A DNA stretch of 64,000 bases from Alkalibacillus aidingensis. GTDB lineage: Bacteria > Bacillota > Bacilli > Bacillales > Alkalibacillaceae. How positions within the stretch are numbered: position 1 is the stretch's first letter; each line of letters opens with the position of its first letter. The translations under genes were made by a program, and so were the position numbers. The stretch is taken from positions 1-64,000 of the forward strand of contig NZ_JABXWU010000011.1 of the NCBI RefSeq assembly GCF_014595945.1, given 5' to 3'. Below the pieces are notes generated by a model. That model was not told the origin of the DNA and did no database searches. It saw nothing but the letters and a program-made list of their open reading frames with translations. Of this stretch, positions 6,871 to 12,290 are shown piece by piece.

Positions 6871-7356
6871 CTACTCCGGGAGCGACCATTCATGAATGAC
6901 TCTCGTGTCGCCAACCATGTCGTGAATACCTTGTTTTTGTGAATCGAATGCGACCACTAAATATAATAAACCTGTAAAAAACAATACCCGGTGAAAAAAG
7001 CGACCAACTATTTCACGGAAGATTAAATCACTCCATTCAAGTGGTCTGAAATCTTTACGGATAACTCTGAGCCCTAAAATTCTTTTTCCTAAAGTTTGAT
7101 TAAAATATTTGGTCATAACCAGGAAATACATATAAAGGACAATCGTATTGACGATGGTTGTCACGGTCCAAAAACCAATCTCATAGACCGCACTACCCGT
7201 TAGTAATTGATAAGGAACAATAACGATTCCATTAATACTAAAGACAATCACCAAGTCAATAAGGTATGCCCAAAAGCGCATCCAAAATCCAGCGAAACGA
7301 ACATTCTCTAAAGAGTCAACTTGTTTTACTGATTGATCCAACTGATCCTCACACAA
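6871..7356 (-). CDS. RDD family membrane protein, YteJ-like
   Basis: A 161-aa RDD-domain protein. FAGFWMRFWAYLIDLVIVF carries the Arg and Asp that name the family; further membrane segments follow, and LGKRILGLRVI is the second family motif. In B. subtilis YteJ (about 164 aa) is cotranscribed with sppA and inhibits the SppA protease. The position directly after sppA, 13 bases from its stop, supports the same role here. The start is TTG with AGGGGGTG about six bases upstream. Confidence 0.85.
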   Translation of the reverse strand: MCEDQLDQSVKQVDSLENVRFAGFWMRFWAYLIDLVIVFSINGIVIVPYQLLTGSAVYEIGFWTVTTIVNTIVLYMYFLVMTKYFNQTLGKRILGLRVIRKDFRPLEWSDLIFREIVGRFFHRVLFFTGLLYLVVAFDSQKQGIHDMVGDTRVIHEWSLPE

Positions 7357-7369
7357 TTAAGGCACCCCC

Positions 7370-8359
7370 TTACTCCGTATACAAATACATAGCTCTAGGC
7401 GAATTAGAGACTCGTAACATCTCAGTTAGGCCTGATAACTGAAGCTCATCACCGAACATTTTCTCTGCAGTCATTCCAAACAACGAACCAATACCTAATG
7501 AATACTCGTACTCCACAACTTGCGCATTCTCTAGGTTATAATCTTGTTGAAGCTGTTCAATTGTATCATCTAAAGAGCCTAGCTCATCAACAAGCCCGAC
7601 ATCCTTAGCTTGGGAACCCGTATAAACACGACCATCTCCCAATTCACGCACAGTAGCTTCATCCATATCTCGACCATTAACAATGACATTGACAAAGTCA
7701 TCATACATTTCATCAATCATAGTTTGTAAAATATCTTCCTCATCCTCTGACATTGGACGTGAAATCGACATGATATCCTTATACTCACCACTCGTAATGG
7801 TGTTAAAGTCAATTCCTAAATCATCAGCCAATTCGGCAATATTGATCGACTCCATAATGACACCTATCGACCCTGTTAATGTCGCAGGGTGGGCAAAAAT
7901 TTGCTCCGCTGGTGCAGACACATAATAACCACCTGAAGCTGCCGTATTACCCATTGATACATAAACAGGCTTGTCCTCCTCTTGCAAACTGACAATCTGA
8001 TCATGAATCTCTTCACTCTCAACAACGCCTCCCCCTGGCGTATTAACTCTTAATACTACTCCTTCGATGCCCTCATCTTCTTTAGCATGATCCAACATTT
8101 CTAATAAAACTCGATGATTATAGGTACTAGCATTAATAACCCCACCTACATCATCACTTTGAATAACCCCGTTTAAATGAATCACCGCTACTTTTTCTGA
8201 GCCTGTGCCATCTTCACGAACCTCTTCGGCAAAATCGTTTTCATCAGATATCAACTCGCCCCATTGAGTAGTTGCAACAGTTGATGAAAACTGGGCAATC
8301 AATGATACAAAAAACAACCCAACAGCAATCGCTAAAGCTGTCCAACGTTTTTTCTCCAT
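7370..8359 (-). CDS. sppA: Signal peptide peptidase SppA (family S49)
   Basis: A 329-aa membrane-anchored serine protease. It has an N-terminal transmembrane helix (about residues 7-26). The conserved VLRVNTPGGGVVESEEI and NTAASGGYYVSAPA hold the nucleophile Ser, and ITSGEYKDIMS holds the catalytic Lys of the Ser-Lys dyad. SppA degrades signal-peptide remnants in the membrane and in B. subtilis contributes to lantibiotic resistance under SigW. Length matches the short Gram-positive SppA type. It lies between two RDD genes. Confidence 0.93.
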   Translation of the reverse strand: MEKKRWTALAIAVGLFFVSLIAQFSSTVATTQWGELISDENDFAEEVREDGTGSEKVAVIHLNGVIQSDDVGGVINASTYNHRVLLEMLDHAKEDEGIEGVVLRVNTPGGGVVESEEIHDQIVSLQEEDKPVYVSMGNTAASGGYYVSAPAEQIFAHPATLTGSIGVIMESINIAELADDLGIDFNTITSGEYKDIMSISRPMSEDEEDILQTMIDEMYDDFVNVIVNGRDMDEATVRELGDGRVYTGSQAKDVGLVDELGSLDDTIEQLQQDYNLENAQVVEYEYSLGIGSLFGMTAEKMFGDELQLSGLTEMLRVSNSPRAMYLYTE

Positions 8360-8462
8360 TATTAATCCTCTCTTTCATCCACATAATATATGAGAGTTTG
8401 TAGCTATATATTTTTCATATTTTATCCAAGAACACTCAATTAATTTACAAAACTTAGATCTA

Positions 8463-8903
8463 TTATTGACGATAAACCACTCTTGTTCGACAAATGATGT
8501 CATGTAATGCTTTCTTCTCTTGATTCCATCCTGCTAACATAAAGCCAATAAGTAAGGGCAATGCAGATATGATATAAGCAAACAGTCGACCAATTGACTT
8601 TAACATACTGATTTTCGTCATATCAGGATTAACCACTTGAATCTTGCAAATAAGTTTACCAGGAGTTCCTTTTAGCGTGCTAGCTGTAAAGATAACGACA
8701 AAAACCACATTGTAAATTAAACTTGCTATCCCGTCTGAAAGTGTCGATTGTTCTCCACTTGTTGCTTGCCAAGATTCAAAATAAGCTTGGTCATTGATTA
8801 AAACAGCAATCATCCACGCAAGAACTAAGACAAAAATTCCATCTATAAACCATGCTAAAAAGCGTATCCAGAACCCGGCAGGCCTGTGTTCTTCTAAAGG
8901 CAC
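8463..8903 (-). CDS. RDD family membrane protein
   Basis: A 146-aa RDD-domain protein with HRPAGFWIRFLAWFIDGIFVL at the N terminus, three to four hydrophobic segments and a TPGKLICKIQVV motif. Function is unknown. It is the first gene of the group RDD-sppA-RDD-ydbS-ydbT. The start is GTG with GGGGGAG seven bases upstream. A sigma-A-like promoter lies just ahead. It is distantly similar to the RDD protein at 6871-7356, both carrying GFWxRFxAxxID, so the pair may be an old duplication. Confidence 0.8.
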   Translation of the reverse strand: MPLEEHRPAGFWIRFLAWFIDGIFVLVLAWMIAVLINDQAYFESWQATSGEQSTLSDGIASLIYNVVFVVIFTASTLKGTPGKLICKIQVVNPDMTKISMLKSIGRLFAYIISALPLLIGFMLAGWNQEKKALHDIICRTRVVYRQ

Positions 8904-9155: not shown

Positions 9156-11171
9156 TTATGCAGCCACTGCACTCTCATGATCCTCTGGTCGGCGCTTTTG
9201 GATATACCAAATAAGCGCAATGATTACAATACCAATAATATCAATATAAACGTTAGGGACAATTAACATTAAGCCAGCTGCAATTAACGCAAATCGCTCC
9301 CAGACGTATGTGCGACGCTGGAAATATCCCATAACCGCACTACTGATACCCATCATACCAATTAACGCAGTCGCCACAGCCAAGATCAACATCATAAACG
9401 GATGTTCAAGCGGCGTGACAAGAATCGGATTGTAGACAAATATATATGGGATAATAAAGGCAGCGATGGCCAATTTAACGGCAGTAAGCCCACTCTTAAA
9501 CGGATTCGACTTAGCTATTCCTGAGCCGGCATAAGCTGCCAGACATACTGGTGGAGTAATATCCGCAACAATACCAAAATAGAAAACAAATAAGTGAGCA
9601 GCAAGTACTTCAACACCAAAACCGTTAATCAACGCTGGGGCAGCAATCGTAGCTGTCACAACGTAGTTTGCCGTTGTTGGAAGCCCCATCCCTAGGATAA
9701 TACACGCAATCATCGTAAAGATTAATGCAAGCAACTGTACATCATTAGATAGAGCAATAATACCGGATGCTACTTTACCACCCAGACCAGTCATTCCAAC
9801 AACACCAGCAATTATTCCCGCTGTACCAACTGCACCAATTACCGGTAAGGCAACACGTGCACCTTGTTCAATGACATAAATAATTTTCCTAAACGACATA
9901 CGAGTTTCTTTACTAACAAGGCTCACGAGAAATGCTGTTAAAATACCCATTAGTGCTGCACGTTGAGGCGTAAAGCCCATGAATAACGTGGTAATAATCG
10001 CAACTAAAGGTAAGAGCATATAACCCTTCGTCTTTAAGAGATGCCATGTGTTAGGTAACGTTTCCTTCGCAACACCGAAAATACCCTGTTTTTTAGCTTC
10101 ATAATGTGATCCCATAAAGATACCTGTAAAATACAACATCGCTGGGATCAATGCAGCTAACATAATGGTTTGGTAATCGGTACTCGTATACTCAATCATG
10201 ATAAAAGCTGCAGCACCCATAATTGGTGGCATTAATTGTCCACCGGTTGAAGCAGAAGCTTCTGCTGCCGCTGCGAATTCTGGTCTAAATCGAGCTCTTT
10301 TCATCATCGGAATTGTAAAGGACCCAGATGAAACCGTGTTCGCAATGGAGCTACCAGATACCATCCCTTGTAATGCACTTGCGGATACAGCTGCTTTTGC
10401 TGTACCTCCCGTAAAACGCCCTGTTAAGGCAAACGCTAAATCATTAAAGAACTTCCCAATTCCGGAGTGTACTAAAATAACCCCAAATAAAAGGAAAAGG
10501 AAAATAAACTTAGCGGAAACCTGAACTGGAATACCGAAAATCGCATTTTCTCTATACCAAAGGTCTGTCATCACACGCTCAAATGAGAAGCCTTTATGTG
10601 AGAGAATTTGAGTAGGTATGAGATTACCGTAGAGTGCATATAAGATCACTACACTCGCCACGATGACAATTGGTAAACCGACTGCCCTTCTAGTTGCTTC
10701 TAACAATAACAGAACACCAGCAACCGCTACAATGACATCAAATGTCTCATAACCGTGGACACGAGCATTAAGTATTTCATCAAAAAAGATGATTTTATGA
10801 TACCCAACATATATTGCTGTAAAAGCCAAAATCACATCGTACCAAGGTACGCCTCGGTCATGTAATCCTTTCTTCGCTGGATATAGTAAGTAAATTAAAC
10901 CTAGAGCAGTTCCTACATGTATAGCTCCTTGGATTTGTGATTGCAACGTACCATTTAAACCGGTCCACAAATGGAACACTGTTAAATACACAGCCAGAAA
11001 CGTAACAATCCAAGCCCACTTTCCAATATTCGTCCTTGTGTTACTTTCCCTGTCATATTTCCTAAGTAACTCTTCTTGATCAACTGCTTCACCATTTTCG
11101 TTTACTTCTGGTGATGGGTTTATTGGTTGCTCATTCCGATTATCAGTCTCGTTGTTCTTTTTTCTAGACAC
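9156..11171 (-). CDS. TRAP transporter permease, fused small and large subunits (TAXI type)
   Basis: About 671 aa with roughly 18 hydrophobic segments. A DctQ-like N-terminal part is fused to a DctM-like part with the family stretches SGSSIANTVSSGSFTIPMM and GMGLPTTANYVVTATIAAPA. Such fused 4TM/12TM permeases pair with TAXI-family solute-binding proteins and use a Na+ or H+ gradient to import organic anions; the substrate cannot be read from sequence. The binding protein gene lies directly upstream, beyond a terminator. GTG at 11171 is preferred because AAGGTGG is eight bases upstream; two GTG codons at 11183 and 11180 have no such spacing. Confidence 0.92.
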   Translation of the reverse strand: MSRKKNNETDNRNEQPINPSPEVNENGEAVDQEELLRKYDRESNTRTNIGKWAWIVTFLAVYLTVFHLWTGLNGTLQSQIQGAIHVGTALGLIYLLYPAKKGLHDRGVPWYDVILAFTAIYVGYHKIIFFDEILNARVHGYETFDVIVAVAGVLLLLEATRRAVGLPIVIVASVVILYALYGNLIPTQILSHKGFSFERVMTDLWYRENAIFGIPVQVSAKFIFLFLLFGVILVHSGIGKFFNDLAFALTGRFTGGTAKAAVSASALQGMVSGSSIANTVSSGSFTIPMMKRARFRPEFAAAAEASASTGGQLMPPIMGAAAFIMIEYTSTDYQTIMLAALIPAMLYFTGIFMGSHYEAKKQGIFGVAKETLPNTWHLLKTKGYMLLPLVAIITTLFMGFTPQRAALMGILTAFLVSLVSKETRMSFRKIIYVIEQGARVALPVIGAVGTAGIIAGVVGMTGLGGKVASGIIALSNDVQLLALIFTMIACIILGMGLPTTANYVVTATIAAPALINGFGVEVLAAHLFVFYFGIVADITPPVCLAAYAGSGIAKSNPFKSGLTAVKLAIAAFIIPYIFVYNPILVTPLEHPFMMLILAVATALIGMMGISSAVMGYFQRRTYVWERFALIAAGLMLIVPNVYIDIIGIVIIALIWYIQKRRPEDHESAVAA

Positions 11172-11227
11172 ACCTTTCACCACCTTATAAATGGGTTCAA
11201 CCTGCCAATACCCCTACATATTTGGCA

Positions 11228-11291: not shown

Positions 11292-12290
11292 TTATTTTAA
11301 ATCATCTAAACTCTCAATACCTGTTGATTCACGTGTAATGATCTGCATAACCTCAGGGTAAATATGACCAATAAACGCGAAGTTACCAACTGCTGCACCT
11401 TCGAAGTCACCTTCACCATTGTAAGCCTCTTGTGCTGGTACGTGAACTGTCATACCTAGGTCCTGATCATCTCTTCCAATGTCTGCTAGGTTCTCAACAG
11501 ATGCACCTGTTTCAGTTGATGTAACGTTAACACCATCAATATGGTTATTCCAAACAGTTGCCATCTCTCCACCTAGTGGATAATAAGTACCACCAGAGCT
11601 ACCAGTACCTAAGATTAATTCTTCCGGACGAGAATCTGCTGTTGCACTAACATCAGCAATCTCACCTGATACATCTAAACCTTGCTCCTCATAATATTCA
11701 GCAGCACCAGGGTGAATTGGTAAACCATCAGAACCATTTAGAGCATTCTCAAGAGTCATATGGTCTGATTGAGCGTGTGTATTTTCATCTGCATGCTCTA
11801 CAGATACACGAGCGAGTTCATAAGCTAAGTCGTGATCAATCGTATTTGTATTACCAACTAATACAGCATAAGCCGTTACCGTTTCCACATCTTCATCCAT
11901 GAAATCGTAAGAATCAGCTGGAATTGTATAACGTAAGTAACCTAAGTTCTCTTCAACATACTCAATAACATCATCAGACAACCCTACTAACTTAGCGTCA
12001 CCTGTATTCGCCTGTAAGTCATCAACACTACCTGCCGGAAGTCCTAATAGACCAAATGACAAGTCAATGTTTCCATCTTGAAGACCATCACTAGCATCAC
12101 CGAAACCTTCTTCGTAAGTATCGATGTCATCGTCTCCTAAACCTGCACCTTCAAGAATTGAATTCGCTGCAGCTTGTGTACCACTACCTGCAGGTCCAAT
12201 TGCAACACTAGAGCTACCTCCACCACATGCTGATAGTACCAATGTTGCTAAAAACCCTACTGAGATTAAAAGTAAAATAGACTTTCTCAT
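11292..12290 (-). CDS. TAXI-family TRAP solute-binding lipoprotein, circularly permuted
   Basis: A 332-aa, strongly acidic lipoprotein with signal peptide and lipobox LSAC (Cys22). After CGGGSSS it begins with VAIGPAGSGTQAAANSILEG (29-48), which in TAXI proteins is the middle of the chain, and continues through the usual C-terminal part to LPIHPGAAEYYEEQGL (190-205). After a linker, LGTGSSGGTYYPLGGEMATV (227-246) starts what is normally the mature N terminus. The protein ends in TESTGIESLDDLK-like sequence (about 321-332), which normally runs straight into the VAIGPAGSG segment. The two halves are thus swapped within one intact frame. It presumably captures an organic anion outside the membrane for the adjacent permease. 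AGGGGGAAAG precedes the ATG. Confidence 0.9.
   Translation of the reverse strand: MRKSILLLISVGFLATLVLSACGGGSSSVAIGPAGSGTQAAANSILEGAGLGDDDIDTYEEGFGDASDGLQDGNIDLSFGLLGLPAGSVDDLQANTGDAKLVGLSDDVIEYVEENLGYLRYTIPADSYDFMDEDVETVTAYAVLVGNTNTIDHDLAYELARVSVEHADENTHAQSDHMTLENALNGSDGLPIHPGAAEYYEEQGLDVSGEIADVSATADSRPEELILGTGSSGGTYYPLGGEMATVWNNHIDGVNVTSTETGASVENLADIGRDDQDLGMTVHVPAQEAYNGEGDFEGAAVGNFAFIGHIYPEVMQIITRESTGIESLDDLK

Follow-up and report, generated by a model that had tools for sequence, protein, structure and literature searches.

The stretch of DNA analysed here, which we call the window, comprises 64,000 nucleotides of Alkalibacillus aidingensis, a salt-loving bacterium (positions 1 to 64,000 of contig NZ_JABXWU010000011.1). 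On its minus strand, from position 12290 down to 11292, lies a single uninterrupted open reading frame of 332 amino acids; the plus strand carries stops throughout 11292-12290. A first-pass annotation had described this frame as a TAXI-family solute-binding protein whose two parts have changed places, and our analysis agrees with its reading of the frame, of the lipobox at Cys22 and of the positions of both sequence blocks. The features of the locus are as follows:

11292..12290, minus strand: coding sequence of the permuted TAXI solute-binding lipoprotein, stop included (332 aa; above the TIGR02122 and PF16868 cut-offs, in two stretches)
12225..12290, minus strand: signal peptide and lipobox LSAC, last residue Cys22 (residues 1-22; from the sequence, with the Cys in 81/82 permuted rows)
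11889..12224, minus strand: first part of lobe II, residues 23-134, with VAIGPAGSGT from residue 29, the new N-terminal side of the cut (VcGluP domain 2 mapping and AlphaFold2 elements)
11850..11888, minus strand: second hinge strand, residues 135-147 (mapped to VcGluP 255-267; AlphaFold2 strand 135-147)
11382..11849, minus strand: lobe I by mapping, a single continuous piece, residues 148-303, containing the old C-terminal motif, the linker and the old N-terminal motif
11619..11675, minus strand: linker between the old C and N termini, residues 206-224 (ordered by prediction; A212 invariant)
11334..11381, minus strand: first hinge strand, residues 304-319 (mapped to VcGluP 116-131; AlphaFold2 strand 304-320)
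11295..11333, minus strand: remainder of lobe II by sequence mapping, residues 320-332, ending in DLK, the other side of the cut; a three-residue turn (AGK in VcGluP) is missing
9156..11183, minus strand: fused TRAP permease (small and large subunit), 675 aa, the next gene downstream (TIGR02123 TRAP_fused, 726 bits against a cut-off of 320.65)

Downstream of the TRAP operon, at 6871-8903 of the window, a signal-peptide-peptidase-like gene lies between two small RDD-like membrane proteins (names given by eye).

Both family models recognize the protein in two stretches. TIGR02122 (TRAP_TAXI) gives 227 bits, well above its curated cut-off of 84.35, with the C-terminal part of the family coming first: in the better stretch, residues 28-204 align with profile positions 143-320 of 320. 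Pfam NMT1_3 (PF16868) gives 211 bits against 27, and its better stretch aligns residues 27-204 with positions 112-289 of 289. In a phmmer comparison with the PDB, the undoubled protein matched seven distinct TAXI sequences, six of them in two stretches and one (9ibp_A) in a single stretch, and the swapped order is directly visible in all three alignments listed. We also doubled the mature protein head to tail, the alignment that the first-pass annotation had proposed as a check. All seven PDB TAXI sequences then matched continuously over about 285 residues, spanning the junction, and the top score rose from 93 to 104 bits; at the junction just three residues (AGK in VcGluP) are absent, in both alignments listed. 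TAXI proteins carry the GTGS block first and the HPGA motif last, an order that is reversed here and in all 82 distinct permuted proteins of our alignment, which has 105 rows (82 permuted and 23 native-order proteins; 11 loci were not caught by it). The proposed circular permutation is thus upheld by the two-stretch profile matches and by the continuity of the doubled query. Homology to TAXI is not in doubt, and the segment order makes the protein, as far as sequence tells, a permuted variant. The rearrangement is real and natural, and the protein it affects is of a known kind.

AlphaFold2 returned a pLDDT of 91.3 and a pTM of 0.85 for the permuted protein (from the 82 permuted sequences), and 89.3 and 0.81 for a native-order relative, L116 (from 31 sequences). 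After the signal peptide, the predicted elements run 13 then 8 in the permuted model and 8 then 13 in the native one. Against TAXI structures, Foldseek gave the native model a TMt of 0.90 over 297 columns and the permuted model a best TMt of 0.50 over 201 columns; because Foldseek follows chain order, a low permuted against a high native score is what a permutation predicts. The third-ranked structure for the permuted model was OpuAC (2b4m), which, together with ProX, we take to be a permuted pair.

The VcGluP report (PMC11574862) places the hinge strands of that protein at residues 116-131 and 255-267, its domain 1 at 29-115 plus 268-328 and its domain 2 at 132-254. The two hinge strands map to residues 304-319 and 135-147 of the window's protein and coincide with the AlphaFold2 strands 304-320 and 135-147, and the predicted model is a TAXI fold with two antiparallel hinge strands. 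The cut maps to domain 2 (lobe II), between the positions that correspond to VcGluP 143 and 148. This revises the first-pass annotation, which had placed the cut at the first hinge crossing; its other statement, that the mature chain begins in lobe II, agrees with the domain mapping. By model and mapping, the cut is about 12 residues past the hinge, both hinge strands are intact and both new ends are on lobe II. Lobe I is now continuous and lobe II split, judging from sequence mapping and predicted secondary structure. The export signal was kept through the permutation, as had been supposed (LSAC lipobox, Cys22), and the lipid anchor would consequently sit on lobe II instead of lobe I.

We hypothesize that the permutation opened the chain in lobe II, at the turn between helix and strand just after the first hinge strand, with the loss of three residues, and that a short conserved linker, about 19 residues long in this protein, came to connect the former ends, which both lie on lobe I. 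With the hinge strands and pocket positions kept, Venus-flytrap closure on the ligand would still be expected, and the ligand would be passed to the fused permease encoded next door. The predicted fold and the binding pocket appear to have been kept despite the swap.

The joining segment had been put at about 19 residues (206-224), and this proved correct. Between the HPGA...GL and GTG motifs lie 19-22 residues in 82/82 proteins (22 in 43, 20 in 37, 21 in one and 19 in one), a count that takes in three residues of the next strand, the linker proper being 16-19. Within the linker, A212 is invariant (82/82 permuted rows), N209 and V211 are each found in 70/82 (Gly and Ile, respectively, in the window), E213 in 64/82 (Asp in the window) and E224 in 72/82. 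With block means of pLDDT of 94-97 the linker is predicted to be ordered, and it looks like a structural part rather than a loose tether.

For the pocket, which we read from the alignment, the six VcGluP residues studied by mutation served as the comparison set. VcGluP Y45, S75 and E125 correspond to Y236, S264 and E313, present in all 82 permuted proteins. Gln93 is replaced by Val282 in 82/82 permuted and 23/23 native rows of the subfamily, Y200 by Gly80 in the same 82 and 23 rows, and M201 by Ile, Leu or Val in the permuted rows. Since the pocket positions equal those of the native subfamily, the permutation seems to have come without visible pocket change. In the VcGluP study, loss of Gln93 is reported to cost the most affinity. 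Of the Tyr45 and Gln93 that go with glutamate binding in VcGluP, only the tyrosine is retained. Glutamate is therefore disfavoured as the ligand, with Val282 in place of Gln93 throughout the subfamily, and the ligand is likely to be something else.

The fused TRAP permease lies one or two open reading frames downstream in 76 of the 79 permuted loci analysed, so the search suggested in the first-pass annotation, for the same order beside a fused permease in related Bacillaceae, had a positive outcome. The permeases of permuted systems fall on one side of a branch with an SH-aLRT of 99, in a quick tree with a weak midpoint root; it contains 48 of the 77 permeases paired with permuted proteins and 19 native permeases, from all but one (L119) of 20 loci. 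This tree supports co-inheritance of the permease with the permuted binding protein, whose role in transport is putative.

Neighbouring genes gave a lead on the ligand in the Halomonadaceae. In 17/20 loci of this family, one or more genes for the breakdown of 2-aminoadipate/2-oxoadipate adjoin, counting genes truncated where the locus ends as well as complete ones; L107, outside the neighbour analysis, counts as a miss. These genes encode a 2-aminoadipate transaminase in 10 loci, the D-2-hydroxyglutarate dehydrogenase YdiJ in 9, HglS in 8 and piperidine-6-carboxylate dehydrogenase in 4; examples within L077-L109 are L086:93-4588 and L099:9057-10418. One representative per family was scored to verify these names. 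Three of the four exceed the curated cut-off; the piperidine-6-carboxylate dehydrogenase, whose gene runs off the locus, falls below it. A LysR gene is present in 18/20 of the loci; its best model is GcvA, just below that model's cut-off. Our best guess for the Halomonadaceae ligand, taken from these neighbours, is a C6 amino or oxo acid: 2-aminoadipate, 2-oxoadipate or pipecolate. None of the four pathway genes stands beside the Bacillota permuted loci analysed, which makes the extension of a C6 acid to the window's protein a weaker inference. Nor did the Bacillota loci show a conserved neighbour that names a ligand: apart from the permease, no gene cluster exceeds 18/79 loci, and that one is the Halomonadaceae LysR.

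A glutamate-1-semialdehyde-aminomutase-like class III aminotransferase is found at 2/79 permuted loci and also beside the native-order L116 and L120; examples among these systems are L120:3766-5040, L116:1-1228 and L042:3011-4423. It scores below the aminomutase cut-offs in L120 and L042 and is a possible catabolic partner.

Does the chain order matter to the transporter? We lean towards the permutation being neutral, an accident fixed once while the transporter went on working unchanged: the pocket is that of the native subfamily, both hinge strands remain and the partner is still a fused permease. Moreover, one permuted protein, from a Castellaniella metagenome-assembled genome (L108:1953-2957), has the swapped order without the lipobox cysteine, and anchoring thus seems unneeded for keeping the order; by its sequence this protein may be a soluble periplasmic form. 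Against neutrality, the linker shows more conservation than a passive tether would require (A212 in every row), and the binding protein and permease stay together across phyla, although neither observation proves an advantage.

A possible though doubtful alternative, argued by analogy, is that moving the anchor to lobe II altered docking on the permease or the freedom of the lobes, and that this would benefit a tethered binding protein. The near-universal cysteine of the permuted rows and the grouping of their permeases would fit, and tethering was raised as a possible reason by the authors of the Tp0684 study (PMC4990184). However, native relatives carry the lipobox cysteine as well (31/31 rows), the Castellaniella form lacks it, and the permease grouping is expected from operon inheritance alone. 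We consider unlikely the combined reading of a TRAP clade in Bacillota, Halomonadaceae and perhaps Castellaniella with anchor and chain ends on lobe II, a co-evolved permease, altered docking or lobe release and a C6 ligand of a lysine route.

To place the event, we built a main tree with the segments in native order from 52 permuted proteins (thinned from the 82) and 33 native ones, the latter count reflecting the addition of 8 of the 11 uncaught loci and two distant Siminovitchia rows. Repeats account for 19 omitted loci: 18 were recognised by origin or identical sequence, and L113 was assumed to be a near-copy of L086. All permuted rows fall on one side of a branch (support 95/89; 96% of bootstrap trees). 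Rooted on the distant TAXI rows, the permuted clade is nested in the native-order subfamily, beside L116, L119, L120, L121 and L134; two long branches of this tree meet near the outgroup, away from the permuted node. The permuted group also contains, among its Bacillota, eight Halomonadaceae rows (support 100/100) and the Castellaniella row, which we read as later transfers. Several independent permutations are disfavoured, since the permuted rows form one group in the tree. The permutation appears to have arisen once and then spread to many bacteria. We hypothesize a single circular permutation of the coding sequence in an ancestral Bacillota gene; it may have originated by tandem duplication and trimming, as the first-pass annotation proposed, though no intermediate of a duplication came to light.

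It is quite improbable that the gene is instead a chimera, in which halves of two different TAXI genes were fused. Paralogues could have supplied such halves, as many of the searched genomes show several TAXI matches, and close paralogues would be possible donors. However, a single match of about 285 residues takes in both halves and the junction between them, and each half taken alone again puts the permuted rows in one group (SH-aLRT 94 and 90). These half trees, which speak against a chimera, are quick ones with few resolved forks: the N-half tree is poorly resolved, and in the C-half tree the outgroup is not on one side of a branch.

Upstream of the permuted gene, Siminovitchia and one of its near relatives carry a second, distantly related TAXI gene in native order (L046:6-3482, L053, L055); in L046 this gene has a permease of its own.

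The permuted form is widespread. Twelve of 60 genomes, the window's own included, hold a contiguous full-length match, with 64-82% identity in the 11 others; the gene also occurs in five further genomes of its genus group, and in its own genome it is the sole match at E 0.001. A scan of named genomes gave 251 relatives, and the best 80 of the 251 all have the swapped order; 9 of these 80 loci are contigs already among the 60 genomes and 71 are outside them. The best 80 span Bacillaceae, Caryophanaceae, 20 Halomonadaceae loci and one Castellaniella record, a metagenome-assembled genome in which a mis-binned contig is possible, so that the form reaches beyond Bacillaceae. In even draws of genomes at E 1e-70, full-length permuted matches were found in 10/299 genomes of the order (29 more matched over about residues 28-206 only), 1/299 of the phylum (that of the window, with a further genome matching over 28-206), 7/81 of the Halomonas family, centre included, and 2/398 of the Pseudomonadota draw, one of them the centre. 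Among plasmids, 310 records match, 110 of them with one place covering at least 80% of the query; the 10 matches listed are all two-piece, below 38% identity, and none of these 10 is a permuted copy. Same-genus comparisons gave a dN of 0.11-0.16 against a dS of 1.05-1.10 (5/5), and the closest relative of native order is 58% identical over one part and 70% over the other.

The order is conserved in other genomes and is therefore neither chance nor a mis-join; that a normal TAXI gene was wrongly joined in assembly, for which nothing speaks beyond the odd order itself, is ruled out for practical purposes by the full-length matches in the 11 other genomes, the best 80 of 251 relatives (71 of them from elsewhere) and a conserved linker of near constant length.

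Taken together, it is highly probable that the locus encodes a lipid-anchored TAXI-type binding protein that serves a TRAP transporter and descends from an ancestral Bacillota gene that was permuted once. Close native-order relatives in the same type of operon allow the event to be placed on a tree, and with a permuted and native pair one could test how chain order affects folding, anchoring and docking. For annotation, it matters that family models give such proteins as two partial matches. The Halomonadaceae neighbourhood, in turn, offers a testable ligand lead for a TAXI subfamily without the Gln that VcGluP needs for glutamate.

Among known systems, the protein resembles TAXI proteins (TIGR02122/PF16868; VcGluP, 8s4j; TtGluBP, 1us4) in sequence, predicted fold, hinge strands, the Tyr/Ser/Glu pocket positions and an adjacent fused TRAP permease, and shares with many of them a lipoprotein export signal. 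In contrast to VcGluP and TtGluBP, its chain order is rotated, a three-residue turn is lost and a conserved linker joins the old ends; unlike VcGluP, it has Val for the pocket Gln93, as does the native-order subfamily. Among the titles and abstract starts listed from the open-access literature, with subscription papers and preprints mostly outside it, none concerns a permuted TAXI/TRAP binding protein. TAXI-GltS (PMC12344293) is another TAXI lipoprotein of unusual architecture; it has extra N-terminal domains and a GltS symporter and no permutation.

Permuted binding proteins of other families are in print, which lowers the surprise. Tp0684 (MglB-2) of Treponema pallidum is described as a circularly permuted Type I ligand-binding protein whose form occurs in treponemes and many Gram-positive species (PMC4990184). 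Like the TAXI permutant, it is a bilobed, tethered binding protein that became circularly permuted in nature; it differs in belonging to another fold class and, likely, to a glucose ABC transporter. According to the same source, its permutation added a fourth hinge crossing, the mark of Type Ic, whereas the TAXI permutant keeps its two hinge strands and adds none. Glycine-betaine-binding proteins are also related through circular permutation (CPSARST, PMC2395249); this source treats these proteins among themselves, citing OpuAC and ProX structures. They share with our case a permuted relationship among binding proteins, but they serve ABC transporters and have low mutual sequence identity, which makes their history less clear. 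Natural permutation of binding proteins was thus already known, and the sequence clearly shows it for a TAXI protein.
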